Shown: in pieces, positions 5,165-22,705 of the stretch
How the letters are laid out: every line of letters begins with the position of its first letter
Numbering within the stretch: position 1 is the stretch's first letter
Source: Myxococcales bacterium
GTDB lineage: Bacteria; Myxococcota_A; Polyangia; Polyangiales; Houyiibacteriaceae
Reading direction: 5' to 3'
DNA length: 34,162 bases
Assembly: GCA_019637115.1 (NCBI GenBank)
Contig: JAHBWH010000082.1
Coordinates: 1 to 34,162, forward strand
Position numbers and translations under genes: made by a program
Notes under the pieces: generated by a model
Database searches by the model: none
What the model was told of the DNA's origin: nothing
Seen by the model: the letters and a program-made list of their open reading frames with translations, nothing else

Positions 5165-5259
5165 TCGTCCGTCGAGATCCCGCGGAGCTCGTCGGCGCCC
5201 AGAGCACGCACGGCGTCGAGCGGACCGAACTCGACAGTGCGTCCGCGCGGCTGTCGTCG

Positions 5260-5265
5260 TAGGGT
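5260..5265 (+). promoter_or_regulatory. Candidate -10 element TAGGGT placed for a leaderless transcript
   Basis: TAGGGT ends 7 nt before the ATG at 5273, and no Shine-Dalgarno sequence is visible between. This is the spacing expected when transcription starts at or next to the start codon. A TTGACA-like TCGACA at 5231-5236 is 23 bp upstream, which is too far for a normal -35. Confidence 0.3.
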
Positions 5266-5272
5266 CCGCCGC

Positions 5273-6805
5273 ATGTCGAGAGCCGAACGAGCACAGATGC
5301 TCCTCGCAAAGATGGGCGTGGACCGGATCGAGGGCGGCGTCCGCGCCGCGGACGGATGGCGGGTCGGCGGTGGTGGGCCGCTCGCGAACCTCGATCCGAC
5401 GGAGGGCGCGCCGCTCCCGTCGGTTCGGGGCGGCGACGCCTCGGACTACGACGCCGTGATCGACGGGGCGCGGGCGCGCTTCGAGGAGTGGCGCACGCGG
5501 CCCGCGCCCAAACGCGGCGAGCTCGTGCGCGCGCTCGGCGAGCTGCTCCGCGCGCACAAGGAGCCTCTGGGCGAGCTCGTCTCGCTCGAGATGGGGAAGA
5601 TCCGCACCGAGGGCCTCGGCGAGGTCCAAGAGATGATCGACGTCTGCGACTTCGCCGTCGGTCTCAGCCGGCAGCTCTACGGGTTGACCATCGCGTCCGA
5701 GCGGCCGCGCCACCGGATGATGGAACAATGGCACCCGCTCGGGCCCGTCGGGATCATCACGGCCTTCAACTTCCCGGTCGCGGTCTGGGGGTGGAACGCC
5801 GCGATCGCCGCCGTCTGTGGTGACACGTGCGTGTGGAAGCCGTCACCGCGGACGCCGCTCGTCTCGGTCGCGGTGCAACACCTCTGCGACCAGGCCGCGG
5901 CCGCGCACGACGCGCACGGTGTCTTCGGGCTCATCTGCGGAGGCGGCGAGCTCGGCGCGCGCATGAGCGACGACGCGCGCCTGCCGCTCGTCTCCTTCAC
6001 GGGGTCCATCGCCGTCGGCAAGCAGGTCGCGTCGCGGGTCGGGGCCCGCCTCGGCCGGACGCTGCTCGAGCTCGGGGGCAACAACGCCGTCATCGTCATG
6101 AGCGACGCGGACCTCGACCTCGCGACCCGCGCCATCACCTTCGGGGCGGTCGGGACGGCAGGCCAGCGGTGCACGAGCACGCGACGGGTCTTCGTGCACC
6201 GCTCGGTGGCTGACGAGCTCGTGGACCGGCTCGCGCGGGCGTACGCGACCGTGAGCATCGGCGACCCGCTCGCGGAAGGCACGTTGATGGGGCCGCTCGC
6301 GGGCGCCCCGGCCGTGCGGGCCTTCGAGCAGGCGCTCGACGCTGCGAAGCGGCAAGGAGGCGAGGTGGTGCGCGGCGGGCACATCGTCGAACGACCGGGT
6401 TTCTTCGTCGAGCCGACGCTCGTGCGAGCGCCGAGCCAGGGCAATTTCCCGATCGCGTGGGAGGAGACCTTCGCCCCCATTCTCTGGATCTTCGAGGTCG
6501 ACGACCTCGAGGAGGCCATCGCGGCGAACAACGCGGTGCCCCAGGGGCTCTCGAGCGCGATCTTCACCGAGTCGATGCGAAGCGCCGAGCGCTTCGTGAG
6601 CGCCAGCGGCAGCGACTGCGGCATCGCCAACGTGAACCTCGGCACGAGCGGCGCGGAGATCGGCGGCGCGTTCGGCGGCGAGAAGGAGACCGGCGGGGGC
6701 CGCGAGTCCGGCTCCGACGCTTGGAAGGCCTACATGCGAAGACAGACGTGCACGGTGAACTGGGGCGGCGAGCTCCCGCTGGCGCAGGGCGTCGAGTTCG
6801 TCTGA
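5273..6805 (+). CDS. ALDH7-type aldehyde dehydrogenase (alpha-aminoadipic semialdehyde dehydrogenase-like)
   Basis: This 510-residue NAD(P)-dependent aldehyde dehydrogenase has general-base Glu266 in LLELGGNN and nucleophile Cys300 in GTAGQRCTSTRR. The C-terminal block AFGGEKETGGGRESGSDAW with later YMRRQTCTVNW and LPLAQGVEF matches the ALDH7/antiquitin family closely. Members oxidise alpha-aminoadipate-6-semialdehyde in lysine breakdown, or other semialdehydes and betaine aldehyde. The ATG at 5273 is preferred over an in-frame start at 5237, because the intervening residues are a basic stretch and the family begins near the sequence AERAQMLLAKMG. No other lysine-degradation genes lie nearby, so the physiological substrate is open. 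The hydrolase starts 10 bp downstream, suggesting co-transcription. Confidence 0.9.
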   Translation: MSRAERAQMLLAKMGVDRIEGGVRAADGWRVGGGGPLANLDPTEGAPLPSVRGGDASDYDAVIDGARARFEEWRTRPAPKRGELVRALGELLRAHKEPLGELVSLEMGKIRTEGLGEVQEMIDVCDFAVGLSRQLYGLTIASERPRHRMMEQWHPLGPVGIITAFNFPVAVWGWNAAIAAVCGDTCVWKPSPRTPLVSVAVQHLCDQAAAAHDAHGVFGLICGGGELGARMSDDARLPLVSFTGSIAVGKQVASRVGARLGRTLLELGGNNAVIVMSDADLDLATRAITFGAVGTAGQRCTSTRRVFVHRSVADELVDRLARAYATVSIGDPLAEGTLMGPLAGAPAVRAFEQALDAAKRQGGEVVRGGHIVERPGFFVEPTLVRAPSQGNFPIAWEETFAPILWIFEVDDLEEAIAANNAVPQGLSSAIFTESMRSAERFVSASGSDCGIANVNLGTSGAEIGGAFGGEKETGGGRESGSDAWKAYMRRQTCTVNWGGELPLAQGVEFV

Positions 6806-6815
6806 TCCTGCGCCC

Positions 6816-7562
6816 ATGCCCGCGAAGCTCGACCACCCCCTCGTGACCGAACGCTACTTCTTCCCACGGGTGGGCCGCCCGCCGTGGGAGGTCCGCGTGC
6901 CAGTGGAGGGCGCGGAGCTCTCCTGCGCGTCGCATCGTCCCCACCCGGGCGCCCCGACGGTCGTGCTCTTCCACGGCAACGGCGAGATCGTCGCGGACTA
7001 CGTGCCGGAGTACGCAGAGCGCTTCGCGCGCGCGGGGCTGAACAGCTTCTTCGCCGAGTACCGCGGCTACGGCGGATCCAGCGGCGCGCCCGCGCTCGTC
7101 CGCATGCTCGACGACGTCGAGGCGATCCTCGACGCGGCGGGGGCGCCCGACGAAGATCTCGTGGTCTACGGCCGCTCGGTCGGATCGATCTACGCGATCG
7201 AGGCTGCGCACCGTCGCCCGCGCGTCCGCGCGCTCGTCCTCGAGAGCGGCATCAGCAGCCCCCTCGCCCGCGTGCTCCTCCGCGTGGCGCCGCGCGAGCT
7301 CGGCGCGACCCTCGACGAGCTCCGCGCCGAGGCGGCGCGCGCGCTCGACCACGAGCGGAAGCTCCGCGGCTACCCCGGCCGCACGCTGGTGCTCCACGCA
7401 GCCGGCGACGACCTCGTGCGGCCGACCGAGGCGCGCGAGAACGCCGCGTGGGCTCGCGACGCCGAGCTCGTCCTCTACGAGCGCGGCGACCACAACTCGA
7501 TCCACGCCTACAACCTCGCCGACATCGTGGCGCGCGTCGCCGCCCTCGCGGGCATCGCCTGA
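6816..7562 (+). CDS. Alpha/beta-hydrolase
   Basis: This 248-residue soluble alpha/beta-hydrolase has the oxyanion-hole strand VVLFHGNGE, nucleophile elbow GRSVGS with Ser121, a probable acid Asp198 or Asp199 in HAAGDDLV, and catalytic His226 in RGDHNSIHAY. The order and spacing are those of the BEM46/YfhR-like group (ABHD13/17 relatives), hydrolases of unknown natural substrate. There is no signal peptide. It follows the ALDH7 gene by 10 bp, so the two are likely one transcript, though no pathway link is evident. The triad appears complete. Confidence 0.85.
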   Translation: MPAKLDHPLVTERYFFPRVGRPPWEVRVPVEGAELSCASHRPHPGAPTVVLFHGNGEIVADYVPEYAERFARAGLNSFFAEYRGYGGSSGAPALVRMLDDVEAILDAAGAPDEDLVVYGRSVGSIYAIEAAHRRPRVRALVLESGISSPLARVLLRVAPRELGATLDELRAEAARALDHERKLRGYPGRTLVLHAAGDDLVRPTEARENAAWARDAELVLYERGDHNSIHAYNLADIVARVAALAGIA

Positions 7563-7639
7563 CGCGCGTCGCCCGACGAAAGGCGCCGGTGTAAACTGAC
7601 CCGTCGAGCCGCAGCCGCGCGACGGCCGCACGAGAGACG

Positions 7640-8578
7640 ATGGAAGAAGACACGAGGCAAGAGCCTGACTCCGAGGTCTACAAGACGCTGCTCGAGTCGA
7701 CGCGGGCGATCCCTTGGAAGATCGACTGGCGGACGATGCGCTTCGCCTACATCGGGCCGCAGATCGAGGGGCTGCTCGGCTGGACGCCCCAGAGCTGGCA
7801 GACCGTCCAGGACTGGGCCGACCGAATGCACCCCGAGGATCGACAGCGCGTCGTCGACTTCTGCGTGGCGCAGTCGAAGGCGGGGGTGGACCACGAAGCG
7901 GACTACCGCGCGCTGACGAAGGATGGCAGCTACGTCTGGCTCCGCGACGTGGTGCACGTCGTCCGTGACGAGGCGGGCGAGGTCGAGGCGCTGATCGGCT
8001 TCATGTTCGACATCAGCGAGCGCAAGCGCACGGAGGAGAAGCTCCTCGCGCTGCAGCGAGAGCTCGAGGACCTCTCGTTCAAGGACGGCCTGACCGGCGT
8101 CGGCAACCGGCGGCGCTTCGACACGGTCCTCGAGACCGAGTGGGAGGCCGCGCGTCGGGACCAGAGACCTCTCTCGCTCGTCTTGATCGACATCGATCAC
8201 TTCAAGGACTTCAACGATCGCTACGGCCACGTGCGCGGGGACGAGTGCCTGCAGCGCGTCGCGACGACCCTCCGCGCGGGCGCCACCCGCCCGCGCGACT
8301 TCCTCGCCCGCTTCGGCGGCGAAGAGTTCGTGCTCGTCCTCCCCGACACCGACGCGGCCGGCGCCGAGCGCGTCGCGACGCGCTGCCGCGAGGCGCTCGC
8401 CGAGGAGGCGATCGCCCACGAGAGGTCCTCGGCGGGTCCCTTCGTGACCGTGAGCATGGGCGTCGGGAGCACGATCCCACGGCCCGGCGACGACGCCGTC
8501 ACGTTCCTCGAGGTCGTCGACCGCCGCCTCTACCAGGCGAAGCAGCGCGGCCGAGACGTCGTCGTGACGGGCGAGTGA
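7640..8578 (+). CDS. PAS-GGDEF diguanylate cyclase
   Basis: The 312-residue cytoplasmic signalling protein has a PAS fold at about residues 15-135 (motifs FAYIGPQIEGLLGW, WADRMHPEDR, YVWLRDVVHVV, and the PAC end GFMFDISERK). A short coiled segment leads into a GGDEF domain (about 145-312). The active site is GGEEF at 226-230, a competent variant. An RxxD inhibitory site (RPRD, 217-220) lies exactly five residues before it, so feedback inhibition by cyclic di-GMP is likely. DIDHFKDFNDRYGH holds the metal and substrate loop residues. The PAS ligand is unknown; no transmembrane helix is seen. TAAACT upstream near 7592 could serve as a -10 element. Confidence 0.94.
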   Translation: MEEDTRQEPDSEVYKTLLESTRAIPWKIDWRTMRFAYIGPQIEGLLGWTPQSWQTVQDWADRMHPEDRQRVVDFCVAQSKAGVDHEADYRALTKDGSYVWLRDVVHVVRDEAGEVEALIGFMFDISERKRTEEKLLALQRELEDLSFKDGLTGVGNRRRFDTVLETEWEAARRDQRPLSLVLIDIDHFKDFNDRYGHVRGDECLQRVATTLRAGATRPRDFLARFGGEEFVLVLPDTDAAGAERVATRCREALAEEAIAHERSSAGPFVTVSMGVGSTIPRPGDDAVTFLEVVDRRLYQAKQRGRDVVVTGE

Positions 8579-8635
8579 CGGACGCGCGCGACGACCCGCG
8601 CGCCTCTCCCACCGCCACGATCTCGGCCCCTCGTC

Positions 8636-8663
8636 TTGACGCCGTGATCGACGGACTTACTCG
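8636..8663 (+). promoter_or_regulatory. Weak sigma70-like promoter candidate before the small ORF
   Basis: TTGACG at 8636-8641 is a good -35 match. TACTCG at 8658-8663, 16 bp on, is a poor -10. A start near 8670 would leave a short leader with the strong Shine-Dalgarno at 8677. Confidence 0.22.
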
Positions 8664-8676
8664 TGCGCGCACCTCG

Positions 8677-8684
8677 AAAGGAGG
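8677..8684 (+). promoter_or_regulatory. Strong Shine-Dalgarno AAAGGAGG
   Basis: AAAGGAGG is an almost perfect anti-16S match and is the strongest ribosome-binding site noticed in the window. It stands 6 nt before an ATG at 8691 that opens only a 34-codon frame. Confidence 0.5.
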
Positions 8685-8690
8685 AAGCGA

Positions 8691-8795
8691 ATGAGAGACC
8701 GCGTCTCGAGCGAAGCCTGCTCTCGCGTCCGCCCCCTTCGAGGGTCGCGGAGCAGCACCACGACGTGCGATGGGACCGTCGACCTCCGCTCGTGA
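8691..8795 (+). CDS. Possible 34-residue small protein or leader peptide
   Basis: A short frame, beginning MRDRVSSEAC and ending at the TGA at 8793-8795, follows the strong Shine-Dalgarno. The product would be basic and Ser/Arg-rich with two cysteines and no hydrophobic segment. I do not recognise it. It could be a real small protein, a leader, or the 5' remnant of a gene lost to deletion. Its codon use resembles the surrounding spacer more than the neighbouring genes, which lowers confidence. Confidence 0.28.
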   Translation: MRDRVSSEACSRVRPLRGSRSSTTTCDGTVDLRS

Positions 8796-9221
8796 TCCAT
8801 CCGTCGGAAGCGTCATCGCTCGTGACCTGAATGGGTCGCGATCACCTTTGCTGCGTCGTCACGAGGGCTTCTCCGGTGGGAGCAGCCTGGCGCGGTACCC
8901 GGATGCTCCTCGTCCACCTGCCGTGAAGAAGTCCGTACTCGGACCGCCTCCGCGGCGGGAGCGTCCAGCGGGGCACGCGTCGGCTTCGGCGCGTGAGCGC
9001 GTTGGTTCGTCGGATCCACTCGTTGGATTCGAACGATCGGCGCGCCCTCGTGAGCACACGACGGACTCGTTCCGTCCCGCTTCCGTACGATCGACCATCG
9101 TTCGCGGCGAGCCCTCGGGCTCGCGAGCGACGGTCGTGCTCGATGGCTCACGAGCGGCGGTCGACGCGCCGCTCTTTTCGGTTTCCTTCTTCCTCCGCTC
9201 CGTCGAACCTCGCCGTGCGTC
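8796..9221. other. Spacer without convincing genes upstream of the HEAT-VWA gene
   Basis: No frame here looks protein-like; the open ones are Arg/Ser-rich with no recognisable motif. The stretch holds two direct copies of CGCTCGTGA (8787-8795, overlapping the small ORF stop, and 8817-8825) and one inverted copy TCACGAGCG (9148-9156). It also holds an 8-bp inverted repeat GCGAGCCC/GGGCTCGC with a 2-nt loop (9107-9124), and a pyrimidine-rich tract (about 9172-9199) just before the next gene. These may be regulatory, but I cannot assign them. Confidence 0.5.
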
Positions 9222-12200
9222 ATGAGGGACGTCGTCCTCTATCGAAACCTGCGCGAGGGACGCCGTGAGCACAGCGACCTCCACACGCTCGCGGCCCTCG
9301 CCGCGCTGCCTCCGGCGCGGCGGGTCGGCTTCGTGGTCGAGCTCGCGCCGCTGCTCGACGATCCCGATCCGACGTGGCGGATCGCGTCGCTGCGTGCGCT
9401 CACCGGTATGCGTGGGCACGCGATCGAAGAGTCAATCGTCGCACGCCTCGACGATCCGCACGCCGAGGTACGTCGCGCCGCGGTGAAAGCGCTGCGTGCA
9501 TCACCGAGCGTGGCGCGCTTCGCCCATGCGCTCTTGCATGCGCGGGTCGACGTGCGTCGCGCGGCGCTCGCGGACGTGCCTCCACAGCTCGGCTTCCTCG
9601 CGTTCACGCTGCGCGCCGATCCCGAGTGTCGCGACCTGGTGCCGCTCGGGCTGCGCGCGCCCGGGCTCGCGTTCGTGCACACGTACGTCACGCGTGGTGT
9701 GCTTCCGCTCGCGGAGGCGCGGACCCGGCTCTTCGACGGGATTCGACCGCTCGTCGAAGCGCGCGCGTACCCGCCGCTGCGCGAGCCGCGCACGCTCTGG
9801 GAGTGGGTCTTCGAGCTCTTCGCGGAGGCCGACGACGGCGCCCGCGTGCCGATGCTCTCACAGCTCCGCACGTTCGCCGTGGGTCCCGCGCCCGCGATCG
9901 ACGATGCGATCGCGGTCCTCGCAGCCGAGCTCGCGCGGCGTCCGCGCGACGACGTCGCACGCCTGCTGGCAGTCCTCGACGCGCGTTTCTTCGCCGACGA
10001 GTCGCGCCCGTTGGCCCAACGGCGCGCGCTGCTCGCGCAGGTGCGTCCGCGCGAGGCGCTCGCGCCGGCGGCGCGGTTTCGCAAAGAGCTCGCGCAGACG
10101 CTGCTCGCGGGTCCGGTGGTGCGACACCACGAAGGCCCGGACGCAGGTCAGCTCGATCTCTCCGCCGCGGTCGCGGTCGCGGAGCTTCACTCGGACTCCG
10201 TCTACGGCGTGTTGGTCGACGCATTCGGCTTCGACCCGCTCGCGGACGCGCTCGGTCGCGATCCGCGCGGCGCGGCGCGACTCTACGAGCGGCTCGGCGG
10301 CGGCGCGCGCGATCGCGCCTGGTTCCTCGACGCGCTGACGCACCGTCGGCCCGACTTCGCACGGGACGGGCGCGCTGTGGCGTTGATCGGCGCGAGCGTG
10401 ATGGATCCGAAGCTGCGCGAGGCTCTCGATGCCGAGGTCACGCGCGCGGATCATGCGAGCGTGTTCGCGCGGGTGGTCGCGCTTGCAGCGGACTTCGCGC
10501 TCAAGGCCAAACGCGCGACGCGGCTCGCGGAGCGCATCGCGGAGCGCGTGCGCGAGGAGGACCTCGAAGCGTTGCTCGCGGTCGCGACGGGGGGCGACGC
10601 GCCGCTCGGAGCGTTCGCGGATCGTCTACTCGGCGCGCTCGGACGACGCTTCGATTCGCAGCTGGTGGAGCTCGTCGACGCCGCGCCTGGGACTCGGCTC
10701 GCGGAGCGGCTCGCGGAGGCCACGACGTTTCCGTTCGTGGTCGAGCGCGCGATCGCGGAGCGATGGCGGGATCATGCGGAGGAAGCGCGCCGCGCCTTCG
10801 CGACCCCGCGGCTGCCGAAGCCGGCCCCGCCCCCGCCCGCGACGGTCGGCGCGCTCTCGGACCCCACACGCACGGCGATCGCGAACGCGCCGAGCTTGGC
10901 GGACGCGCTGCAAGCAATCCGCGGTCCGACGACGGGCCTGACCTCCGCTTTGCAGAAGCGCGCGGGCGAGCCGAACGTGAGCGCGTGTGCAGCGCTGCTC
11001 GCGTCGCACGATCCGCGGACCGAGGTCGTGCGCGAGCTCGTGCGCTTCGAGCAGGCGAACGATTCGTTTCGCGAGCTCGTGATCACCGAGTGCGCAACGC
11101 GTTTCCTGATGCGTTGCGATCTGCCGCTCTTCGGGCACGCGATCGTGCACCGCTGGGAGCACCACGCTTACGCCACGCTCGACGCGCTGGAGCAAGAAGG
11201 CGCGCGACCGGCAGACCGCGAGGACGCGGGCTCCGTCTCGGAGAGCGAAGGGACGAACCGATCGGGAGCGACGTTGGCGCGCGCGCTGACGGTCCTGCGC
11301 ACCAGCCCGTCCGTGCTCGTGCGACGCGAGGTGTGGTGCGCGTGCGCGCGTGCGTTCGCGCTACTGCGCTGGAACGGCAAAGAGCGGCTCGCGCGGCTCG
11401 CATGCGACGCGCTCCTCGATCGACTGCTGGAGACCTTCCGCTCGGAGCTCGGCGTGCACGCGGCGCGAATGTTCGTCGCGCTCTTCGAGGCGGGCGTTGC
11501 GGATGGGCTCGTGCGCGCACGCCACGCGGCGGTGATGGCGCTCTTGCCGAGCCTCGACGACGCGACGCGCGCGGTGCTCTCGTCGTTCGCGAAGCTCGAC
11601 GGGTTGCCCGCGCGCACGAGCTCGACGCACAGCTTCGTCGACGCGAGCGAGACCCTGCGCGCGCTCCGCGCTTCGACCGACGTGACGTACCTCGCGTCGC
11701 TCGTGACGCAGGGCTCGGCGCCCTTCGCGGAAGAGGCCGTGCAGCGGCTCTTCGAGCTCGGCGCGAACGGAGAAGCGGCGCTGCTCGCGCTCTTCGACGT
11801 CGGCGGCGACGGCGCGGTCGCGATCGCGCGTTACGGCTCGCTCTTCATGCACGTGAAGCGCGAAGCGCTGCTGGAGCGACTCCCCCGGCTGCCCGCGGCG
11901 GCGCGTTTTCACCTCGCGCTCGAGCTCGCCGAACCGCAGACCGCTCTCGACGCCGCGAACGCACCGCTGGAGGGATCGAGCTGGCTGGAGCTCGCCGACG
12001 TCGAGCGGTTGACGGCGAAGGTCGGTCTGCGCGAGGTCGCGCTCGCGCTCGTGATCTCGCCGCACCCCGCGGCGTACGAGCTCGCCGTGCGCGCGTGCCT
12101 CGACGGCAGCGCGTCGATCTCGGACGACGAGGCGCGCCTCGCGCTCGTGCGTTTCCTCGAGCAAGGCACCGAGCGCATCGCGGTGCTGCGAGTCGACGTC

Positions 12201-14153
12201 GCGAACCACCTCGCGCGCGGCGGAAACCCGCTCGGAATGCCGTTGCTCGTGGAGGACTCGCTCACGAAGCGAAGCTGGAAGGTCCTCGGGGCGGTCGAAC
12301 CGCGCGCGGCGGTGATCGGCGCGCTCGCGATCGGAGAGCACGAGGCGGCCGCGTCACAGCTCGCGCGGCGGTTCGCGCCGCGTCCCGAGCTCCTGGAGCT
12401 CGCGACGCTCTTGATCCAAGCACGCGATCCCGAGGAGCGCGCGCGCGCGGCGGAGATGCTCGCCGACGTGCGGTCCAGCACGCGGAATCACAAGCTCCGG
12501 ACGCTCGCGGAGATCTTCGCGTGGGGCGTGCGGCGCGGACGCGAGCTCACGGGTCGCGTGGTGGGCGTACGACTGACCACGGGGCGAAACCAGCTCGGGC
12601 ACACCCGTCTCGGCGGATCCACGATCTTCGTCGGCGGTTGGCCGGTCTTCGACGGCGCGGAGCACGGGCGCGACGTGGTCGAGGGGCTCGTGATGCACGA
12701 GCTCGGTCATCAGGCGTGGCACGCGGACGCGGCGTCGGTCGATTTGTGGGCGAAGGCGGGGCGCGACGGGCTCCAACACCTGTACAACCTGGTGCTCGAC
12801 GAGCACCTCGAGCGACGGTTGCGCGCGCGTGAGGCCCGTGACGGCGACCGTCTCAAGCGGCTCGCGTCGTACGCGTTCCAACACTCGGGGCGCGAGCTGG
12901 CGCCGCTCACGCTGGTGTACGCGCTCGGTCCGGACGTCGCGCGCGTGCTGATGGGCCGGGTGCTCGTGGCGTTCGAGCCGGACTGCGTGCGCATCGAGAG
13001 CGGCGCGATCCTCCGCGCGGCCTGCGAAGAAGGGCGCTCGTTCGCGCGCTTCGTGCGCGCGCTCCGGATGGGGCTCGGCGATCGCGACGCAGACCCGAAA
13101 GTGCGCGAAGCGCTCGCGCTCTTCGATCGCCACTTCAAGGAGCTCGACACCGCGGCGCTCTACGAGCTCACCCAGAAGCTCGCGAAGATCTTCGGTGACG
13201 AGGCCGTGCTGCTGCGTTGCCTCGGCACCCCGGAGGAGATCCCGGGTGACGATCCGCGCTCGCTCGAAGATCGCGAGGACATCGGTGACGAAGAGGTGCA
13301 ACGCGAGGTCGAGCGCATCTTGGCGCCCCCGTCGAAGACCGGCGGTGGCCGCGGTCGCCCGGGCGGCGCGCTCCAGATCAATGTCGGGGCGGACGACGGA
13401 TTCTCGCCGATCCGCGAGGTGATCCGGCTACCGCCGAGCCTCGATCGGCAGCGCGAGCTCGCGCGCGAGGTGGCGCGGCCCGCGCGACGGCTGCGCGAGG
13501 AGCTGGAGCGGCTCGGGCTCGCGCGGGTGTCGGTGGGCGCGCGGCTCGCGGGCACGCGGCTCGATCGCGCGCGGCTCCGAGGGCTCGTACTGCGCGGCGA
13601 CCCGCACGTGATGCAGACGCGGGTGCTCCTCCCACGCGCGGATCTCTTCCTCGGCGTCGCGGTCGACTGTTCGGGCTCGATGACCGGGACCAGCATCGAG
13701 CTCGCGCGCCGCTTCGCGGTGTTGCTCGCGGAGAGCGCGCGCGGGATGCGAGGCGTCGATCTGCGGGTCTTCGGCTTCACCGATCGACAGCTCTACGACG
13801 CGGGCGACGCGGAGCGATCCACGGCCGCGTCGCTCTACCCCGGCGGCGGCAACAACGACGCGGCCGCGCTCGCGCACGTCGCGGAGGTCGCGCGGCGCTC
13901 GGGTCGGCGGGCGAAGCTGCTCGTGATGATCAGCGACGGGCTCCCGACCGAGTGTTCGGTCGAGGCGCTGCGCAAGCTGGTGCGGCGCCTCGGCCGCGAG
14001 GGCATGGCGTGCGCGCAGATCGCGGTGCGCCCGCTCGAAGAGCGTTGCTTCGACGACTACGTCGAGGTGCGCGATCTCCCGACCGACGAGGCCGTGCGAC
14101 GCTTCGGCGCGATCGTCGCGCGGCTGGTGCAGCGCACGGTGCGTCCGTCGTGA
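9222..14153 (+). CDS. Giant HEAT-repeat, HExxH metallopeptidase-like and VWA protein
   Basis: The 1643-residue soluble protein starts with HEAT-like repeats (visible from PTWRIASLRALTGM and AEVRRAAVKALRAS), and helical repeat-like sequence fills most of the first 1000 or so residues. A zincin-like module at about 1110-1300 holds HELGHQAWH (His1159, Glu1160, His1163, possibly His1167) followed by NLVLDEHLERRL. This resembles the putative metallopeptidase domain found with VWA proteins of the DUF2201/CobT type. A VWA domain (about 1465-1643) carries the MIDAS DCSGSM (Asp1482, Ser1484, Ser1486) and later VMISDGLPTE. No signal peptide is present. There is no clear Shine-Dalgarno before the ATG. 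The AAA+ gene 119 bp downstream makes a MoxR-VWA pair. Recruitment of targets to the AAA+ partner and their proteolysis is inference. Confidence 0.82.
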   Translation: MRDVVLYRNLREGRREHSDLHTLAALAALPPARRVGFVVELAPLLDDPDPTWRIASLRALTGMRGHAIEESIVARLDDPHAEVRRAAVKALRASPSVARFAHALLHARVDVRRAALADVPPQLGFLAFTLRADPECRDLVPLGLRAPGLAFVHTYVTRGVLPLAEARTRLFDGIRPLVEARAYPPLREPRTLWEWVFELFAEADDGARVPMLSQLRTFAVGPAPAIDDAIAVLAAELARRPRDDVARLLAVLDARFFADESRPLAQRRALLAQVRPREALAPAARFRKELAQTLLAGPVVRHHEGPDAGQLDLSAAVAVAELHSDSVYGVLVDAFGFDPLADALGRDPRGAARLYERLGGGARDRAWFLDALTHRRPDFARDGRAVALIGASVMDPKLREALDAEVTRADHASVFARVVALAADFALKAKRATRLAERIAERVREEDLEALLAVATGGDAPLGAFADRLLGALGRRFDSQLVELVDAAPGTRLAERLAEATTFPFVVERAIAERWRDHAEEARRAFATPRLPKPAPPPPATVGALSDPTRTAIANAPSLADALQAIRGPTTGLTSALQKRAGEPNVSACAALLASHDPRTEVVRELVRFEQANDSFRELVITECATRFLMRCDLPLFGHAIVHRWEHHAYATLDALEQEGARPADREDAGSVSESEGTNRSGATLARALTVLRTSPSVLVRREVWCACARAFALLRWNGKERLARLACDALLDRLLETFRSELGVHAARMFVALFEAGVADGLVRARHAAVMALLPSLDDATRAVLSSFAKLDGLPARTSSTHSFVDASETLRALRASTDVTYLASLVTQGSAPFAEEAVQRLFELGANGEAALLALFDVGGDGAVAIARYGSLFMHVKREALLERLPRLPAAARFHLALELAEPQTALDAANAPLEGSSWLELADVERLTAKVGLREVALALVISPHPAAYELAVRACLDGSASISDDEARLALVRFLEQGTERIAVLRVDVANHLARGGNPLGMPLLVEDSLTKRSWKVLGAVEPRAAVIGALAIGEHEAAASQLARRFAPRPELLELATLLIQARDPEERARAAEMLADVRSSTRNHKLRTLAEIFAWGVRRGRELTGRVVGVRLTTGRNQLGHTRLGGSTIFVGGWPVFDGAEHGRDVVEGLVMHELGHQAWHADAASVDLWAKAGRDGLQHLYNLVLDEHLERRLRAREARDGDRLKRLASYAFQHSGRELAPLTLVYALGPDVARVLMGRVLVAFEPDCVRIESGAILRAACEEGRSFARFVRALRMGLGDRDADPKVREALALFDRHFKELDTAALYELTQKLAKIFGDEAVLLRCLGTPEEIPGDDPRSLEDREDIGDEEVQREVERILAPPSKTGGGRGRPGGALQINVGADDGFSPIREVIRLPPSLDRQRELAREVARPARRLREELERLGLARVSVGARLAGTRLDRARLRGLVLRGDPHVMQTRVLLPRADLFLGVAVDCSGSMTGTSIELARRFAVLLAESARGMRGVDLRVFGFTDRQLYDAGDAERSTAASLYPGGGNNDAAALAHVAEVARRSGRRAKLLVMISDGLPTECSVEALRKLVRRLGREGMACAQIAVRPLEERCFDDYVEVRDLPTDEAVRRFGAIVARLVQRTVRPS

Positions 14154-14272
14154 GCGTGAGGTGATGCAGACTCTCTCGAGACTCTCTTTCGATCTTCTCC
14201 CGACGAGACCCACCGCACTCTCCCGCGCGCTTCGTGGTTTCGATTCCTCCTTCGACCAACGCGAGCGACATC

Positions 14273-15382
14273 ATGAACCGCCTAACCCTCGACGACCTCG
14301 CCCCCGGCCGCACCTTCGAGACGAGCTTCTTCGCGAACGACGCGCCCGGCTCGCGCTTCCGCTGGCGCGCCACGCAGCTGGACGGACGGCGCGCGCCGAA
14401 GGTCGTGCTCAGCGACGACGCGCGCATCCAGGAGGGCGTGCCCTGCGTCGTGCGCGTGGTGCACGTCGGCAAACCCGAGAGCGCGACGCACGGCCACGTC
14501 GAGGTGGTCTGGGATCGCGCGGCGTCGTTTCGGGTGGAGGGTGTGTGGCTCGATCCGAGCGTGGCGCGGAAGCTCGAGGTGCTCCTCGACAGCGGCCTCA
14601 ACATCTTGCTCGACGGACCGCAGGGCTGCGGGAAGACCACCCTCGCGCGCGCGGTCGCCACGCAGCTCGGGATGGATTTCGTGTTCTTCAACTGCGGCGC
14701 GGTGGTCGAGGCGAGCGACTTCTTCGCGACCATCCAGGTGCGCGCGTCGGAGTCCGGCGCGCCCGTCACGGACTTCGTGAAGACCGAGATCCTCGAAGCG
14801 ATCGAGCGCGCGTCGAGCGATGCGAGCCGCCGCGTGCTGGTCTTCCTCGACGAGCTCAACCGCTGCCCCGAGCCGGCGCGCAACGCGCTCATGCCCGCGC
14901 TCGACAGCACGCGGCGCGTGTTCCACCCGATCGAGAATCGGTTCCTCGCGATCCCCGATCACGTGCAGTTCGTGGCCGCGATCAACCGCGGTCGTCAGTT
15001 CAGCGCGACGTTCGGCCTCGACGCCGCGCAGCTCGATCGTTTCGCGCCGCTGCGGATGACGTACCCGCCGCCGGAGGAGGAGGTGAAGATCCTCCGTCGA
15101 CGTCACCCGAGCCTCGCCGCGAAGGTGGTCGAGCGGGTGGTGGTGGTGGCGGACGCGGTGCGGCGCTCCCCCGAGATCGCGACGGGGCTCTCGGTGCGCG
15201 CGACGGACGAGGCGTGCGTGTACCTCGCGCACCCCCGCTTCGGCGGCGGGACCGACGATCAGATCCGCGACGTGCTCCGAACGAGCTTCTGCCTACGCTT
15301 CGACGGCGACGCGGACGACGTGACGACCGACGCGGGCGCGGTGTGGACGATCGTCGAGCAGACGCTGCGTCAGGCGGAATGA
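14273..15382 (+). CDS. MoxR/CobS-like AAA+ ATPase (AAA_5 type)
   Basis: The 369-residue ATPase is the partner of the upstream VWA protein. An N-terminal domain of about 95 residues (LTLDDLAPGRTFETSFF and onward) has no family I recognise. The AAA+ core has Walker A GPQGCGKTT (115-123), Walker B VFLDELN (Asp193, Glu194), sensor-1 region QFVAAINRG, and an Arg-containing LDRFAPLRM block, all in the MoxR/dynein-related style. ATP hydrolysis would drive remodelling of a VWA-bound target. The ATG at 14273 is preferred over a GTG at 14234, since the extra 13 residues look non-homologous. No Shine-Dalgarno is evident. A pyrimidine-rich leader like that before 9222 precedes it, so the gene may have its own promoter. 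Confidence 0.86.
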   Translation: MNRLTLDDLAPGRTFETSFFANDAPGSRFRWRATQLDGRRAPKVVLSDDARIQEGVPCVVRVVHVGKPESATHGHVEVVWDRAASFRVEGVWLDPSVARKLEVLLDSGLNILLDGPQGCGKTTLARAVATQLGMDFVFFNCGAVVEASDFFATIQVRASESGAPVTDFVKTEILEAIERASSDASRRVLVFLDELNRCPEPARNALMPALDSTRRVFHPIENRFLAIPDHVQFVAAINRGRQFSATFGLDAAQLDRFAPLRMTYPPPEEEVKILRRRHPSLAAKVVERVVVVADAVRRSPEIATGLSVRATDEACVYLAHPRFGGGTDDQIRDVLRTSFCLRFDGDADDVTTDAGAVWTIVEQTLRQAE

Positions 15383-15752
15383 GCTCGCGGCTCGGAAGGC
15401 ACGAGGTTCCGGGCGCGTTTGCCATCCCGGGGTAACGTGCGTGCTGAACCGTCGCAGCCGTTGTGGTCCCGCAGCTCCCAGGAGGGCTCTCCAAGGTGCT
15501 GGGATCGATGGCGGGTGCGACCACCTCCAGGCCGAAGCGCGCGAGCATCGCGGGCAGCCCTGGCTCGGCGAAACGGGTCGGGCGCGGCGAGAACCTCAAC
15601 CCGCGAGCGTCGCGGCGAGCGCCTCGGCCAAGCTGCTCACGGGGACGACGCCGGCCGAGGCTCCGTCGAGGCGCCGCTCGTCGGATCTCTCCTGGCTGTC
15701 GGCTACGCACAGGCGACTGACGTCCGATCGCCAGCGTTCGCTCCGCCGAGCC
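15383..15752. other. Convergent intergenic stretch, no assigned gene
   Basis: This 370-bp gap lies between two convergent operons. No start codon with a ribosome site and no recognisable protein was found. A minus-strand frame ending at a TGA near 15598 reads like a C-terminus (GVVPVSSLAEALAATLAG), and another reads PAMLARFGLEVVAPAIDP. Both may be remnants of a lost gene or chance. A 9-bp inverted repeat GCCTCGGCC/GGCCGAGGC (15621-15629 and 15653-15661) is present, but it has a long loop and no T-tract, so it is not a convincing terminator. Confidence 0.45.
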
Positions 15753-17753
15753 TCAGCGCGCCTCGAGCGCGAGCTCCACCCGCAGGCCCGCGTCGATCCA
15801 CGCCGCCGCCGCGTCGTCCCACGACGCCTCGTCGCTGACCACGCGCGCGTGCTCCAGGGCCGCGCCGGCGCGCTCGAGCACGTTCGCCGTGCGCGAGAGG
15901 CCTCCGCGCTCGAGCGCCCGCGAGAGCTCCCCGAGCCGCGCGCGCGCGGCGCCGGAGAGATCGCGTAAGCCGAGCTGGACGCCCTCCGCGAGCAGCCCGC
16001 GCGCCCGCTCGAGCTCGTCGCCTGCGTCGGGAGGCAGCGCGCCTCGCGCGATCGGCGCGCGCTCTCCGTCGCGGGGCTCCCACGCGCGGAGCTCGGGCAC
16101 GATCACCTCGCCCGCGACGACCGCGGTCGGGTCGAAGAAGACGGCGCCGCCGCGCACGTGCACCTCGCCCGCCAGGTAACGCGGCGCGCCAAAGCGGCCG
16201 CTGAGCGCGGCCGCGAGCACGTCCTCTGCGTCGGGCGCGTGGGCGCGGTGCTCGCGGACGACCAGCACGAGCGTGTCCTCGAGGTCGCGCGCGACCGCGA
16301 CGAGGCGCTGCGTCGCCGGGTCCCAGCGCACGTCGTCCACCCCCGCGATGGGCAGCACGTAGACGTCGTCCGCGAGCACGCGTGGTCGCAGCGCGTGCGG
16401 AGGCCGAGTCTCCCGCTCCCGCAGGAGCGCCGCGACGCTCTCCGCGCGCAGCGGCGCTGGCAGCCGATCCCAGTCGCCGACCTGCGGGGTCACCGAGGTC
16501 GCCCCGCGCGCGTTCCCGAAGAGCACCGCGCGGTTCGCTCGCCGCTTGGCCGCGCGCGTCACGACCTGCCCCGCCGCGAGCTGCGCGAGGCTCGTCCCCG
16601 CCGCCCGGCGGCGGCCGAGCTCCGAGATGGAGGGCACCTCCGCGTCCGCCGCGAAATCCCACGACTTCGTGTGCACGAGGACCGCCCCCGTGTCGGGATC
16701 GGCGAGCAGCACCTCGACGCCGCGGGTCGTCCCTTCGCTCACGCCGCGGGCCCCGAGCCCGACGAGCCGTAGGTGATCGAGCGCCGTCTCGTGCCGCTCG
16801 CCCTTTCCGAGCACGTGCGCGGCGGGCAACGCCACGCCCGCGCTGCGCGCGACGGCCCGGCGACGCGCTTCGAGCTCGACGACCAAGTCGAGCACGTCCT
16901 CCGGGGTGTAGCGGGCGCTGCGCGAGCGATAGCGCGCCAGTGAGGCCTCGAGCGCCTCGAGCGCGCTCTCCGGCCAGAGCCAGCCGCGCGCGCCAAGCTC
17001 CGAGCGCGCGAGCGCGAAGCGCTGACCGAGCGCCTCGCGCGCGTTCGCCACCCCATCCACGACGAGGTGCCGCGCGAGCGAGACCGCCACCTCCAGCGGG
17101 CTCTCGTCGACCGCCTCGGCGCGCGCGTCGCGCACCTCGACGGTCTGCTCGAGGGCCTCCCGGTCGCGCGTGTCCGCCTCGCGGAACGCCCAGACCGCGA
17201 GCGCCACGTGCGCGCAGCCGATGCCCACGCGGCAGTCGCAGCGCGCGTACGCGAGCTCGCGCGGGACGAGGAAGCGCACGGTGCAGCTCGGCAGCTCGAC
17301 GGTGGCGGGCTCACTGGGTCGCGGCCGTCGCACGACCGCGACGACGCCTCGGCGCCGCGCCGCGCGCGCCTCCTCGAGCGGGCGACGACCGAGGGTCGCG
17401 AGCGCCGCGTCGTCGAGCTCCCCCGGCGACCACGGCTCGAAGTCGGGCTCGCGCGCGCCCTCGTGGGCGCCGGACGCGGACGACGCGAACGCGCGATAAG
17501 CGAGCGCGGTCGCCACGCGGTGACGGCAGACCCCCATCGCCGGGCACGAGCACGGCACGTCCCGGAGTGGCCGCCCCGGGACGAGGCGCGCGACCACGCC
17601 GTCCGGGAAGGTGCCGATGACCGTACCGTCCGACTCCTCGGTGAGGCTCGGCCCCTGCCCCGCCTCGAGCTCCCGGAGGGCGCGCTTGACGAGCCCGACG
17701 TTCGCGAGCGCGGCGACCGCCTCGGGCGTCAGCGCGTAGAGATCCTCCCTCAT
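15753..17753 (-). CDS. SWIM zinc-finger protein of the MoxR-DUF5682-VWA operon
   Basis: The 666-residue protein begins MREDLYALTPEAVAALANVG. It carries two SWIM zinc fingers of identical spacing (CxCx5CxH): Cys68, Cys70, Cys76, His78, and Cys172, Cys174, Cys180, His182. SWIM motifs bind nucleic acid or protein partners. The remaining 450 residues are alpha-helical and beta-rich with no further motif I can name. It is the last gene of the operon. Its ATG overlaps the VWA stop as ATGA at 17750-17753, a translational coupling arrangement. The same frame stays open upstream across the VWA gene, but that part is an antisense-like composition artefact, so the start at 17753 is used. SWIM proteins are regular members of this operon type in actinobacteria and other phyla. 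Confidence 0.86.
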   Translation of the reverse strand: MREDLYALTPEAVAALANVGLVKRALRELEAGQGPSLTEESDGTVIGTFPDGVVARLVPGRPLRDVPCSCPAMGVCRHRVATALAYRAFASSASGAHEGAREPDFEPWSPGELDDAALATLGRRPLEEARAARRRGVVAVVRRPRPSEPATVELPSCTVRFLVPRELAYARCDCRVGIGCAHVALAVWAFREADTRDREALEQTVEVRDARAEAVDESPLEVAVSLARHLVVDGVANAREALGQRFALARSELGARGWLWPESALEALEASLARYRSRSARYTPEDVLDLVVELEARRRAVARSAGVALPAAHVLGKGERHETALDHLRLVGLGARGVSEGTTRGVEVLLADPDTGAVLVHTKSWDFAADAEVPSISELGRRRAAGTSLAQLAAGQVVTRAAKRRANRAVLFGNARGATSVTPQVGDWDRLPAPLRAESVAALLRERETRPPHALRPRVLADDVYVLPIAGVDDVRWDPATQRLVAVARDLEDTLVLVVREHRAHAPDAEDVLAAALSGRFGAPRYLAGEVHVRGGAVFFDPTAVVAGEVIVPELRAWEPRDGERAPIARGALPPDAGDELERARGLLAEGVQLGLRDLSGAARARLGELSRALERGGLSRTANVLERAGAALEHARVVSDEASWDDAAAAWIDAGLRVELALEAR

Positions 17754-18883
17754 CCGCGCACCTTCTCGGCGATCCAACCGGCGAGCTCGCCCGGCGTCAT
17801 CGCGCCGACGTGCGCGCCGACCTTGACGAGGCGTGCGGCGAGCTCGCGGTCGTACGCGGGGGCCGCGGACTCGTCGAGCGCGGCGAGGCCGAGCACCTTG
17901 GTGCCCTGCGCCGTGAGGCTCGCGACCTCGCGCACGAGGCGCTCGGGCGATCCACCTTCGTAGAAGTCCGTGATGAGCACGACGATGGCCCGCCGCGGCG
18001 CCTCGACGAGCTGCGCGGCGTAGGCCATCGCCTGATCGATGAAGGTCCCGCCGCCGAGCTGCACCTTCATCAAGAGCTCGACGGGATCGGTCACGTCCTG
18101 CGTGAGGTCGACGACCGCGGTGTCGAAGGCGACGAGGTGGGTCTTGATCCCCGGCAGGCCCCAGAGGCACGCGGCGGTCACCGCCGAGTGGATGACCGAG
18201 CTGACCATGCTCCCCGACTGGTCGACGACCAAGATCACCTGCCAACGCTCCGTGTGCCGCCTGGTGCGAGCGTGGAAGATCGGCTTCTCGAGGTAGAGGC
18301 GCTTCTTCTTCGGGTCCCAGCGGTGGAGGTTCTCGCGCAGCGTCTCGCGGAAGGCGAGGTTGCGCGCGATCTTGTAGAGGCTGCGGCGGCGCCGATCGCG
18401 CGTCCCGGCGAAGCTCTGGCGCACCTCGCGCGCGAGGCTCTCCATCAGCCGTCGCACCACCTCGGCCACGAGCTTGCGCGCCATCGCGAGCACCTCCGGG
18501 TTCATGAGGTGCTTGGTGCGCAGGACGGCACGGAGCAGCGACTCGTTCGGCTCGATGCGCTCGAGCACGTCGGGGCGCGTGACGATCTCGTCGACGCCGA
18601 AGCGCTCGACCGCGTCCTGCTCGAGACGCTCGATGGTCTCCTGCGGGAAGAGCCGGTGGATGTGATCGATCCAGTCCGGCACCGAGAGCTGCGAGGCCTC
18701 TCGGCCGCCCTGGCGCGACGCGATGTCGCGACCGACGAGCTCCGAGTCGCGGTCGTAGAGCCACCCCAGGGCGGCGTCCATCGCCTGGGCGTCGCCGTCG
18801 AGGCAGCCGCCGCCGAGCGCGCCGTCCGCCGCCTCGCCGAGCACGAGCCGCCACCGCACGAGCGGCGCGATCGGGTCGCTCAT
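17750..18883 (-). CDS. VWA-domain protein (CoxE-like) of the second MoxR system
   Basis: The 377-residue protein has a helical N-terminal half (about 1-200) and a C-terminal VWA domain. The MIDAS is DQSGSM at Asp221, Ser223 and Ser225; a distal Thr lies in LGGGTFID, and a late acidic motif is VLITDFYEGG. These are the metal-ion adhesion site residues, so Mg2+-dependent binding to the MoxR hexamer or a client is likely. There is no signal peptide or membrane segment. The ATG overlaps the DUF5682 stop as ATGA (18880-18883), and its own stop overlaps the SWIM start the same way. It should therefore be made in fixed ratio with both neighbours. Confidence 0.9.
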   Translation of the reverse strand: MSDPIAPLVRWRLVLGEAADGALGGGCLDGDAQAMDAALGWLYDRDSELVGRDIASRQGGREASQLSVPDWIDHIHRLFPQETIERLEQDAVERFGVDEIVTRPDVLERIEPNESLLRAVLRTKHLMNPEVLAMARKLVAEVVRRLMESLAREVRQSFAGTRDRRRRSLYKIARNLAFRETLRENLHRWDPKKKRLYLEKPIFHARTRRHTERWQVILVVDQSGSMVSSVIHSAVTAACLWGLPGIKTHLVAFDTAVVDLTQDVTDPVELLMKVQLGGGTFIDQAMAYAAQLVEAPRRAIVVLITDFYEGGSPERLVREVASLTAQGTKVLGLAALDESAAPAYDRELAARLVKVGAHVGAMTPGELAGWIAEKVRG

Positions 18884-21357
18884 GGTGCCTCCTCGCGCTC
18901 GCTGGGACCGAGCCCGTACTTCGCCTCGATGGCGTCGACGCGCGCCTCGAGCGCGTAGCCGCCCGCGACCCGAGCCGCGTCCGTCGGCAACGACAAGAGG
19001 CTCCGCGCCTCACCGACATCCTCGCCTCGATGCGCGAGCACCCGCCGCGCGAAGCGCTCGCGCTCCCTCGGCGGAAACCACGAGTACGCGAAGCGGAGAC
19101 TGGGCAGCGCCACGAGGAAGTCGTCCCGGGTCATCTCCTGCAGGACCTCGTCCAGCGCGCCCACCAAAACCGCAGACTCGAGCACCTCCTCGCGCGCCAG
19201 CGCGAAGAGACCCGCGAGGAAGTCCCCGAGCGTCGAAGGCCGGGCCGCCCCGCGCACCGCAAGCGCCGCAAAGCCCCCGACGTCCCCGACGTCCCCGTGC
19301 CCGTGCCCGTGCCCATGCCCAAAGTCCCCGTCCCCGAGGTCCCCGTCCCCGTCCACGTCCACGTCCACGTGCGCGTGACCCGTCTCTGCGTCCGAACCCG
19401 CCTCCACCTCCGAACCCAAACCCAAACCCACCCAATCCGCTCCCTCCGACCCGAGCCCGAGGCTCCAGAGCCACCCGAGCGCGCCCCCCCGAATCGCGGG
19501 CGGCGCGTCCAGATCCACCGAGCGGCGCTCCATCACACCCGCCGCGCGATCGACGTCCAGGACGAGCGTCGCGCCGCGGCGGACGAGATCGCGCAGCGCC
19601 ACGATCGCCCGCAGGTGGCCGGTGTCGGCAGGCGCCTCCGCGCCGCTCACGCCCTCGAGCAGCCAGAGCCCTCGATCGAACGCCGCCTCGAGCACCCGCG
19701 CGAGCACGAGCGCCTGGGAGGCGCCGACCAGATCGCCATGCCGGTAGAGATCGAAGAGCCGGTGCGTCGCCTCGCCGAGCTCCCCGAGCGACGGCTCGCT
19801 CGCGACCGCGCTCGCGATCTGTCCGACCACGCGCGACGAGAGCGTGTCGATCCCCGTGAACGCCGCCTCACCGAGGAGCCCCGCGAGCCGCGCGAGGGAC
19901 GCGCCCGCCGCGATCAGGCCCTCCTCGAGCCGCGCGGTCGCCGCGCTCTCGAGCGTGCCCCCGTAGCTCGCCGCCTCGATGAGCGCGGCGTCGGCGTCCT
20001 CGTGGCGCACGATCATCCAGCGCTCCTCGAGCTCGGCGTCGGTCGCGAAGCCCGGCCCGGCGACGCGCTGGATCCCCGGAACCCCGAGCACCCGCAGCCG
20101 GTGCAGCACGCGGCTCGTGTCTCGCTCGCGCGGGTCCGCCAGGCGGACCCGCACCTCGCGCGGGGTCGCGCGCGGGTCGAGATCGTGAGCCGCCAAGATC
20201 GCCTCGACGTCCGCCGCGAGCGGGGGCCGCGGCGTGCCCGCGCCGAGCTTGCCGCGCTGCTCGCCCGAGAACGCCGAGACGACGGCCACGATCAGCGGGT
20301 CGGTCCGCGGGAGCAGCGGCCCGCGCCGGGACCACGGCAGCGGCACCTCGAGCGCGTCCTTCACGAGCGCGCTGGCGACCGCGTCGAGCAGGTCGGTGCG
20401 GGCGAGCGCCGCGTGCCCGCGGAGCTGCGCGAGGCCGCGCGCCACCGACAGACACGCGATGAGATCCGCCGTAGAGACGTGTTGTCTCTTCGCCCGCAGC
20501 GACGCGACCGCGCGCTGCAGCAGCGCCTCGCAGGCCGCGTCGGCGCCGTGGGTCCAGACCGCCTCTTGGAAGGCCGGCGAGGGCATGCCGGCCTCGTAGC
20601 CGGCGAACGCGTCGAGGCGCTTCTCGGAGTAGGGCACCAGGTAGCTGCCGCGACGTGTGTCGGGCGGCGGGCTCGGATCGAGGGCGGGCGCGGCCGGGCT
20701 CGCGTCCTCCCAGAGGCGCTCGATGGCCGGCGCGTGATAACCGCCGCAGACGACGACGACGTCGCCGCCGTCGCGCATCGCCCACGCGACCGACGCCGCC
20801 ATGAAGTCCTCGCGCGGGCCGTCGCGGTCGCCTCCCGGCTCGTCGGCGCGCAGACGCTCGAAGTAGGTCGCGAGGCGCTCGCGCAGCGCCGAGAGCGGCA
20901 TCGGCTGCTCGAAGAGGTGGTCCCAGAGCGTGTCCACGTCGTCGACGCCGAGCTCACGGCAGAGCGCCTCCACGTAGCGGCTCGCGTGCGAGCGCTCCTC
21001 GAGACCGAGGCGATCGGCGAAGCGGTTGCGGAGGCCCTCGAACGCCGGATGCCACGCCGGCAGATCGAAGAAGCGCGCCGCGGCGCCGACCTCGTCGGCC
21101 ACCTTCAACGCGACGTGCTCGGGGCTGTAGTTGCAGAAGGGTGTCCACGAGGCGTGGTCGCGCGCGGGCCCTCGCTCGAAGGTGAAGATCGCGATCGGCA
21201 GCGTGTGGTCGAGGCGCAGCTCGTCGAGCCGCTCGTTCCAGTCCGCGGGCCCCTCGATCAGCACGTGGCGCGGGCGGACCTCGCGGATCACGTGCGCGAC
21301 GAGGCGCGCGCACGCGGGGCTGTGGTGGCGAACGCCGACGACGTGCAAGGCGCCCAC
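18880..21357 (-). CDS. DUF5682 family protein (ChaN/EreA-like fold suspected) with low-complexity insert
   Basis: The 825-residue protein opens with HVVGVRHHSPACA, then VLIEGPADWNERL, and further on VVVVCGGYHAPAI. This H, E, GxxH pattern recalls the TIKI/EreA/ChaN superfamily of metal-dependent hydrolases and is typical of DUF5682. The enzymatic role is inferred. The middle is helical. Residues about 641-694 are a Gly/Asp/Val/His-rich tract ([20 protein letters not shown]) encoded by a hexamer array that family members are not expected to have. The normal C-terminal region resumes after it. The GTG start at 21357 lies two codons after the MoxR stop in the same frame, and no better start exists. 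It is the second gene of the MoxR-DUF5682-VWA-SWIM operon. Confidence 0.82.
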   Translation of the reverse strand: MGALHVVGVRHHSPACARLVAHVIREVRPRHVLIEGPADWNERLDELRLDHTLPIAIFTFERGPARDHASWTPFCNYSPEHVALKVADEVGAAARFFDLPAWHPAFEGLRNRFADRLGLEERSHASRYVEALCRELGVDDVDTLWDHLFEQPMPLSALRERLATYFERLRADEPGGDRDGPREDFMAASVAWAMRDGGDVVVVCGGYHAPAIERLWEDASPAAPALDPSPPPDTRRGSYLVPYSEKRLDAFAGYEAGMPSPAFQEAVWTHGADAACEALLQRAVASLRAKRQHVSTADLIACLSVARGLAQLRGHAALARTDLLDAVASALVKDALEVPLPWSRRGPLLPRTDPLIVAVVSAFSGEQRGKLGAGTPRPPLAADVEAILAAHDLDPRATPREVRVRLADPRERDTSRVLHRLRVLGVPGIQRVAGPGFATDAELEERWMIVRHEDADAALIEAASYGGTLESAATARLEEGLIAAGASLARLAGLLGEAAFTGIDTLSSRVVGQIASAVASEPSLGELGEATHRLFDLYRHGDLVGASQALVLARVLEAAFDRGLWLLEGVSGAEAPADTGHLRAIVALRDLVRRGATLVLDVDRAAGVMERRSVDLDAPPAIRGGALGWLWSLGLGSEGADWVGLGLGSEVEAGSDAETGHAHVDVDVDGDGDLGDGDFGHGHGHGHGDVGDVGGFAALAVRGAARPSTLGDFLAGLFALAREEVLESAVLVGALDEVLQEMTRDDFLVALPSLRFAYSWFPPRERERFARRVLAHRGEDVGEARSLLSLPTDAARVAGGYALEARVDAIEAKYGLGPSEREEAP
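19275..19435. repeat. Hexanucleotide array B inside the DUF5682 gene
   Basis: GTCCCC, GTCCAC and GTGCCC-type 6-bp units dominate 19275-19380, followed by looser (AACCC)-type repeats to about 19435. The word AAAGTCCCC occurs inside (19321-19329), matching the AAAAGTCCCC edge of the arrays at 24026 and 25777. The array is read on the minus strand as Asp-Val/Asp-Gly/His-Gly dipeptides. Confidence 0.88.
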
Positions 21358-21363
21358 GCGCGC

Positions 21364-22500: not shown

Positions 22501-22566
22501 CCGAAGTGCCTCCGCGCGGGAGCGTACACGACCCGGTGACTCCCCGTGCTGGAGGACGTGGCGCAG

Positions 22567-22588: not shown

Positions 22589-22630
22589 TTGCGGAGGCGA
22601 AAGCTCGCGCTCGACGAACCGCTCGGCGGG

Positions 22631-22656: not shown

Positions 22657-22705
22657 CGGGGGCCCGCGTGGGACCGTCCGTGATGTAGGACCCGCTGCGC
22701 CAGAT

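Follow-up and report, generated by a model that had tools for sequence, protein, structure and literature searches.

A HEAT-extended, CobT-like VWA protein with a predicted zincin domain and its MoxR-type AAA+ partner

Described MoxR/VWA machines and the nearest relatives

MoxR/VWA pairs are found widely, and how they act is poorly understood. To our knowledge, none of the VWA partners that have been characterised (NorD, CbbO and CobT) is known as a protease. In NorQD, one NorD binds the NorQ hexamer with the finger of its VWA domain sitting in the pore; as the nucleotide steps proceed, the VWA domain turns relative to the N-domain, and a proposal is that either the MIDAS or the linker holds on to the client (PMC13036017, PMC9976466). 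In CbbQO, the MIDAS of CbbO engages an acidic residue of Rubisco (PMC4660213). A 2023 paper described the sequence ahead of the NorD VWA domain as having no obvious homology to other proteins (PMC9976466).

The window analysed here, a 34,162-nucleotide stretch from a Myxococcales bacterium, encodes a very large VWA protein whose closest described relatives are the CobT-like VWA proteins of phages and plasmids (PF06213/PF11775 and relatives), which are encoded beside CobS-like AAA+ genes. These share with the window protein a zincin N-domain, a linker, a pre-VWA region and a MIDAS-bearing VWA domain, but they are only ~600-745 aa long, and in the six examined a long HEAT front is always absent. 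Five of the six (four phage proteins and one plasmid protein, which made up the comparison set) carry HExxH together with NxxxDxxxE; the sixth, phage ZY21 CobT, has no HExxH. When the HEAT-zincin-VWA family was aligned by hhalign with a profile of the five, the two matched at 99.8% (E 4e-29) over 494 columns, with HEAGH placed on HELGH and NTLEDIWMER on NLVLDEHLER. With the N-domain alone the score was 58 (E 7e-8), and none of 60 column-shuffled controls exceeded 22.7. Among viral models, the zincin domain by itself matched phage proteins labelled 'VWFA domain' and 'CobT subunit' over ~230-290 columns with probability 1.00. The Pfam CobT_C model came just below its cut-off on the window protein (19.5 bits versus 21, E 8e-4), and Pfam CobT (PF06213) gave no match. 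As judged from these profile comparisons, the C-terminal 560 residues of the large protein are homologous over their full length to CobT-like VWA co-chaperones, and we regard the whole as a HEAT-extended CobT-like co-chaperone with a putative zinc site, that is, a variant within the MoxR/CobT-like machines and not a new kind. The two-gene system to which it belongs is undescribed in the libraries and literature searched, and is fairly widespread. A further MoxR-type set was seen on the Marinobacter plasmid pMAQU02 (224-4674), where a AAA ATPase, a hypothetical protein, a DUF3150 protein and a CobT-like VWA protein form one gene run; the last of these shows the same zincin pattern (HESAH...NLIEDIRIE).

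More distant systems share fewer parts. CobT of the aerobic cobaltochelatase (PDB 9uka) has the pre-VWA region, the VWA domain and the AAA+ partner in common with the window protein and aligns with it through the zincin region, but it has neither the HExxH motif nor a HEAT arm. The list that VIA-align returned for our zincin model omits CobT, which we take as no evidence against kinship. NorD (with NorQ) and CbbO (with CbbQ) likewise combine a MoxR partner and a long N-terminal part with a C-terminal MIDAS VWA domain, but in the three NorD proteins compared by hhalign only the C-terminal (VWA) half aligns with the family. The N-domain of NorD was considered as a relative of the zincin and set aside, having no HExxH and no profile match in these three proteins. 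The earlier note had drawn its comparison with smaller MoxR-linked proteins that pair a metallopeptidase with VWA, probably meaning DUF2201 (PF13203/PF09967, a putative metallopeptidase and a VWA-like domain), whose members also have an HExxH domain with VWA behind it on a single chain but are 400-800 aa long, with the motif W-N-x-A-x-D-x-x-x-N in one branch. That comparison did not hold up: the profile search led to the CobT-like proteins, and DUF2201 was rejected as a parent family, with no match to PF13203 or PF09967 at E 1 and an hhalign result of 15% over 30 columns. PF13203 was not found in genome G000.

The two-gene unit

The large protein is encoded by an open reading frame of 1643 residues at 9222-14153 (+), starting with ATG; its extent and the position of HELGHQAWH (residues 1159-1167) agree exactly with those first reported for it, and there is no second HExxH anywhere in the chain. 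The frame is backed by its homologues and by purifying selection, and the start at 9222 is supported because the homologue L048 begins at its own ATG with MKDLELHQQLREGR, similar to the window start MRDVVLYRNLREGR. An overlapping frame at 8770-9225, for which Pfam gave no match, is taken as spurious. Pfam saw little of the large protein: HEAT_2, VWA and CobT_C all fell slightly below their cut-offs, and the middle of the protein had no match. Neither NCBIfam nor PADLOC has any model that matches it.

Residues 1-1090 (9222..12491) were predicted by AlphaFold to be almost all helix, arranged as a solenoid with a mean pLDDT of 84. Foldseek placed large proteins of helical repeats, such as karyopherins, CAND1, TBCD and RRP12, as the best matches, with E-values down to 3e-6 and low TM-scores, and the only HEAT repeats visible to Pfam lie at residues 41-117 (9342-9572; HEAT_2, 26.7 bits versus a cut-off of 27.7, E 7e-6). 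The HEAT-like arm is followed by the zincin domain (approximately residues 1091-1335; 12492..13226), a linker that is variable in the family alignment (approximately 1336-1384; 13227..13373), the pre-VWA region (1385-1478; 13374..13655) and the VWA domain (1479-1603; 13656..14030). Thus the proposal that HELGHQAWH stands between a HEAT-like solenoid and a C-terminal MIDAS domain is borne out by AlphaFold, Foldseek and the conserved MIDAS.

The arm evolves faster than the rest. Across the family, alignment columns of the HEAT region average 25% identity and those elsewhere 45-55%, and the comparison of the window with one same-genus species gave dN/dS values of 0.27 (residues 1-550) and 0.39 (551-1090) for the arm, 0.13 for the zincin, 0.07 for the finger and VWA domain and 0.10 for the ATPase. 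The large-protein frame is under purifying selection. The very large HEAT front end stressed in the earlier note is present in the window protein, but it is not a constant feature of the family: in L101 and L104 the chain starts directly with the zincin, and L092 and L097-L100 have ~540-590 residues ahead of it that a long-HEAT profile does not recognise. Since the arm is missing or unlike in some homologues, the core consists of the zincin, the linker, the pre-VWA region, the VWA domain and the ATPase. The arm is a variable attachment, compatible with client selection. In the subgroup of L095, L101 and L104, the stretch aligned with the zincin is ~190 residues longer.

The pre-VWA region contains a RLAGTRLDRARLRGLVLRGDP stretch that is matched by the CobT profile (E 2e-7) and aligned by hhalign, and it is the probable pore finger by analogy with the described machines. 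The VWA domain was matched by Pfam VWA at E 1e-4, just below the cut-off, and its MIDAS residues (D1482/S1484/S1486, N1544/D1546 and D1572) are identical in 63 homologues. Read against the pattern DxSxS...T...D, the first element is DCSGS (residues 1482-1486), the last is the invariant D1572, and an invariant NND stands in place of the threonine.

The AAA+ partner that had been expected next to the large-protein gene is indeed found there, on the same strand and 119 bp downstream. It is a MoxR/CobS-type ATPase of 369 aa (14273..15382, +), the homologues favouring the ATG at 14273 over the GTG at 14234 that opens the frame 14234-15382 (+). A 424-aa frame at 14161-15435 was rejected as the AAA gene, being in the wrong frame and having no Pfam match. 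AAA_5 matched the ATPase with 48.3 bits versus a cut-off of 22 (E 1e-12), and GPQGCGKT, VFLDELNR, AAINRG and DRF (Walker A, Walker B, sensor 1 and the Arg finger) are invariant or nearly so; a conserved N-terminal region of ~100 residues precedes the AAA module. Among other models, a phage AAA family labelled porphyrin biosynthesis matched at E 2.5e-22 and bpMoxR at E 0.0085, with PADLOC returning weak P-loop matches.

We searched 377 sampled Myxococcota genomes with the C-terminal 597 residues and obtained 16 strong and two weak matches. The ATPase was found in the same 16 of the 377 genomes, the window's ATPase being 47-65% identical to its co-occurring orthologues, and additionally in G332, where it lies 90 bases from a contig end. 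In G268, G354, G388 and G253 it is not adjacent to the large-protein gene, a 61-65% identical copy being located on another contig. Regular co-occurrence across genomes supports the AAA+ gene as a dedicated partner of the large protein. No third gene was found to accompany the pair, as no widely recurrent neighbour appeared within ~8 kb across loci (the largest recurrent cluster covers 9 loci), and the same-genus copy, over the stretch compared, is flanked by none of the window's other neighbours that were tested. The HEAT-zincin-VWA protein and the AAA+ ATPase are a real two-gene MoxR system. L037 (G282; 5706-17140, -) has a single ATPase gene with a HEAT-zincin-VWA gene on either side of it, an arrangement that would suit one motor working with two client adaptors.

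A GTDB genome scan yielded 61 loci, labelled Myxococcota/Deltaproteobacteria, Planctomycetota, Gammaproteobacteria, Acidobacteriota, Gemmatimonadales, Krumholzibacteriia and others. Two of the carriers are named, sequenced strains, Minicystis rosea DSM 24000 and Plesiocystis pacifica SIR-1. No relative was found in IMG/VR viral contigs, and none of the window protein on plasmids.

The zincin domain and its candidate metal site

AlphaFold2, given 53 family members as input, modelled residues 1070-1335 with a mean pLDDT of 92. A long helix leads into three strands, after which come the helix with HExxH, a shorter one and finally the helix carrying DExxERxxR. In the numbering of this model the strands lie at 46-68 and are followed by helix 80-98 with HExxH at 90-94, which is the gluzincin-type placement of the motif on a helix after a beta sheet. 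The predicted structure, which the earlier note had proposed as a check of the zinc site, speaks against the note's refuting case of an exposed helix lacking any further ligand: it has a zincin fold, HExxH on the active-site helix and a candidate ligand motif beyond it.

The structural neighbours point in the same direction. Foldseek against the PDB returned the minigluzincins abylysin, selecase and jannalysin among the first matches (probability up to 0.94, E 0.28), although these best matches are stand-alone proteins of ~105 residues. We know of no VWA or AAA+ link for the minigluzincins. VIA-align ranked 3cmn at the top (Z 6.1), followed at Z 3.7-5.3 by selecase, jannalysin, abylysin, 3c37 (a putative Zn-peptidase), PprI, LTA4 hydrolase, M1 aminopeptidases, Wss1 and thermolysin. 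Single matches are weak, but zincins dominate the list and the solved neighbours are mostly gluzincins. By sequence, a profile of the domain matched no zincin among PDB sequences, and Pfam Zincin_1 gave weak matches in 9 of the 53 family members. Taken together with the N-domains of the phage CobT-like proteins, the model supports a predicted zincin fold with a conserved metal-site pattern at approximately residues 1091-1335.

The HELGH motif (residues 1159-1163; 12696..12710) is not a chance occurrence, because HExGH (H1159, E1160, G1162 and H1163) is unvaried in every one of the 59 homologues spanning the zincin domain and the MIDAS residues are identical in 63. Conservation was one of the points on which the earlier note had been ready to give up the site, and it came out in favour. 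A second-helix motif that the note had missed, DEHLERRLR (residues 1193-1201; 12798..12824), lies 30 residues beyond HExGH. Its pattern DExxERxxR is equally constant: D1193, E1194, E1197, R1198 and R1201 are identical in 59/59, and the three invariant acids fall on the next helix (116-134 in model numbering), so the stretch DExxER (1193-1198) probably supplies the third metal ligand. D1193 and E1197 are common to the family and to the CobT-like proteins with the site, while E1194 is invariant within the HEAT-zincin-VWA family and not outside it. D1193 or E1197 is the likeliest third ligand since these two acids are shared across all aligned HExxH-bearing proteins; E1194 remains a candidate. 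For the site itself we infer proteolysis as the role, while a metal-handling or structural role may also be considered.

One distant relative, L106 (Obscuribacterales, 6330-8831, +), is the exception at the zincin, having lost HExxH and kept NDEHDER. Its protein also has long hydrophobic segments inserted before the VWA domain, and its ATPase is distant.

Proposed mechanism, alternatives and surrounding genes

We favour, with a probability of roughly 0.5, a stand-alone two-gene MoxR/VWA machine acting as a motor-coupled processing metallopeptidase and not as a threading protease. By analogy with NorQD and CbbQO, the ATPase would assemble as a hexameric ring and take the pre-VWA region into its pore as a finger, the MIDAS metal would bind an acidic residue of the client, and ATP hydrolysis would turn or pull the VWA domain against the remaining protein. 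The fast-evolving HEAT arm, by our own suggestion here, may select or hold the client, and the zincin, placed between arm and gripper, would cleave the client, or else the large protein, in a limited and site-specific way after remodelling has brought the cleavage site to it. Limited proteolysis by the zincin stands at about even odds, and metal transfer by its site is considerably less probable; catalysis is favoured because Glu1160 is invariant, and metal handling because relatives insert metal. The complete chain of events, in which the MoxR ring drives a site-specific metallopeptidase through MIDAS/finger motion that presents a HEAT-held client to the zincin of the same chain, is offered tentatively and as short of even.

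The known functions of the relatives suggest another use for the site, in which the protein would be a metal-insertion chaperone whose zincin site holds a metal or passes it to a gripped client metalloenzyme opened by the ATPase, with no peptide bond cleaved. NorQD inserts iron (for cNOR), CobST acts in cobalt chelation, and the large protein is CobT-like. But CobT and NorD, which are known for metal insertion, do so without an HExxH site, the general-base Glu1160 is invariant here though not needed as a metal ligand, and no metalloenzyme gene recurs beside the pair. We consider this possible, if unlikely.

The motif is absent from CobT and ZY21 CobT and has been lost in L106. CobT keeps the domain region without HExxH, so the scaffold can evidently work without the site, and the zincin might be a catalytically silent scaffold with structural zinc, the protein being only an ATP-driven remodelling adaptor. 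The full motif is nevertheless unvaried in 59 family sequences, which makes this account improbable.

The MoxR-vWA ternary conflict systems also have a MoxR and vWA core, and HEAT repeats have been noted in some of their vWA components (Kaur et al. 2020, PMC7159879). If the pair were a component of such immunity systems of multicellular bacteria, the HEAT arm would recognise the invader and the zincin would be the effector; the patchy distribution, the neighbourhood unshared even within the genus and the fast evolution of the HEAT region would suit this. The ternary systems have a conserved third component, however, and none recurs at the HEAT-zincin-VWA loci; PADLOC has no model for the large protein, the bpMoxR match of the ATPase is marginal, and no association with mobile elements was seen. 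We think such a role very doubtful. A role of the pair as CobST in an aerobic cobaltochelatase, at which the CobT profile and porphyrin-biosynthesis AAA matches might hint, is hardly credible, because CobN, the catalytic subunit and CobT's partner, was not found in 14 of the 16 carrier genomes, the window's own included, and the solved CobT has no HExxH.

In a bacterial and phage branch of CobT-like VWA co-chaperones, the zincin N-domain has its metal-site pattern intact; the CobT of the B12 chelatase lacks that pattern. This raises the question of whether CobT-like N-domains were originally peptidases or metal sites. If the reading as a motor-driven peptidase is true, proteolysis in this system would be coupled to ATP without any threading of the substrate into a chamber, and CobT-type co-chaperones might descend from such peptidases.

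A second, unrelated MoxR system adjoins the pair at 15753-22719 (-), consisting of an AAA_5 ATPase (21364-22719, -), a DUF5682 protein (18880-21357, -), a CoxE-type VWA protein (17750-18883, -) and, inside 15753-19019 (-), a protein weakly matched by SWIM. It presumably recalls YehL/YehP/YehQ of E. coli. The same-genus HEAT-zincin-VWA gene was not accompanied by this SWIM/VWA/DUF5682/MoxR cluster, and we therefore treat the cluster's position as coincidence. Further along, a 1319-aa frame at 23842-27801 (+) joins an alpha-amylase domain (residues 319-622) and AMPK1_CBM to a radical SAM domain with SPASM in the C-terminal part (941-1302); provided that the frame is correct, this fusion is unusual. 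On the other side of the pair, an aldehyde dehydrogenase at 5237-6805 (+) scores above the NCBI cut-off for L-piperidine-6-carboxylate dehydrogenase (750.7 versus 730).
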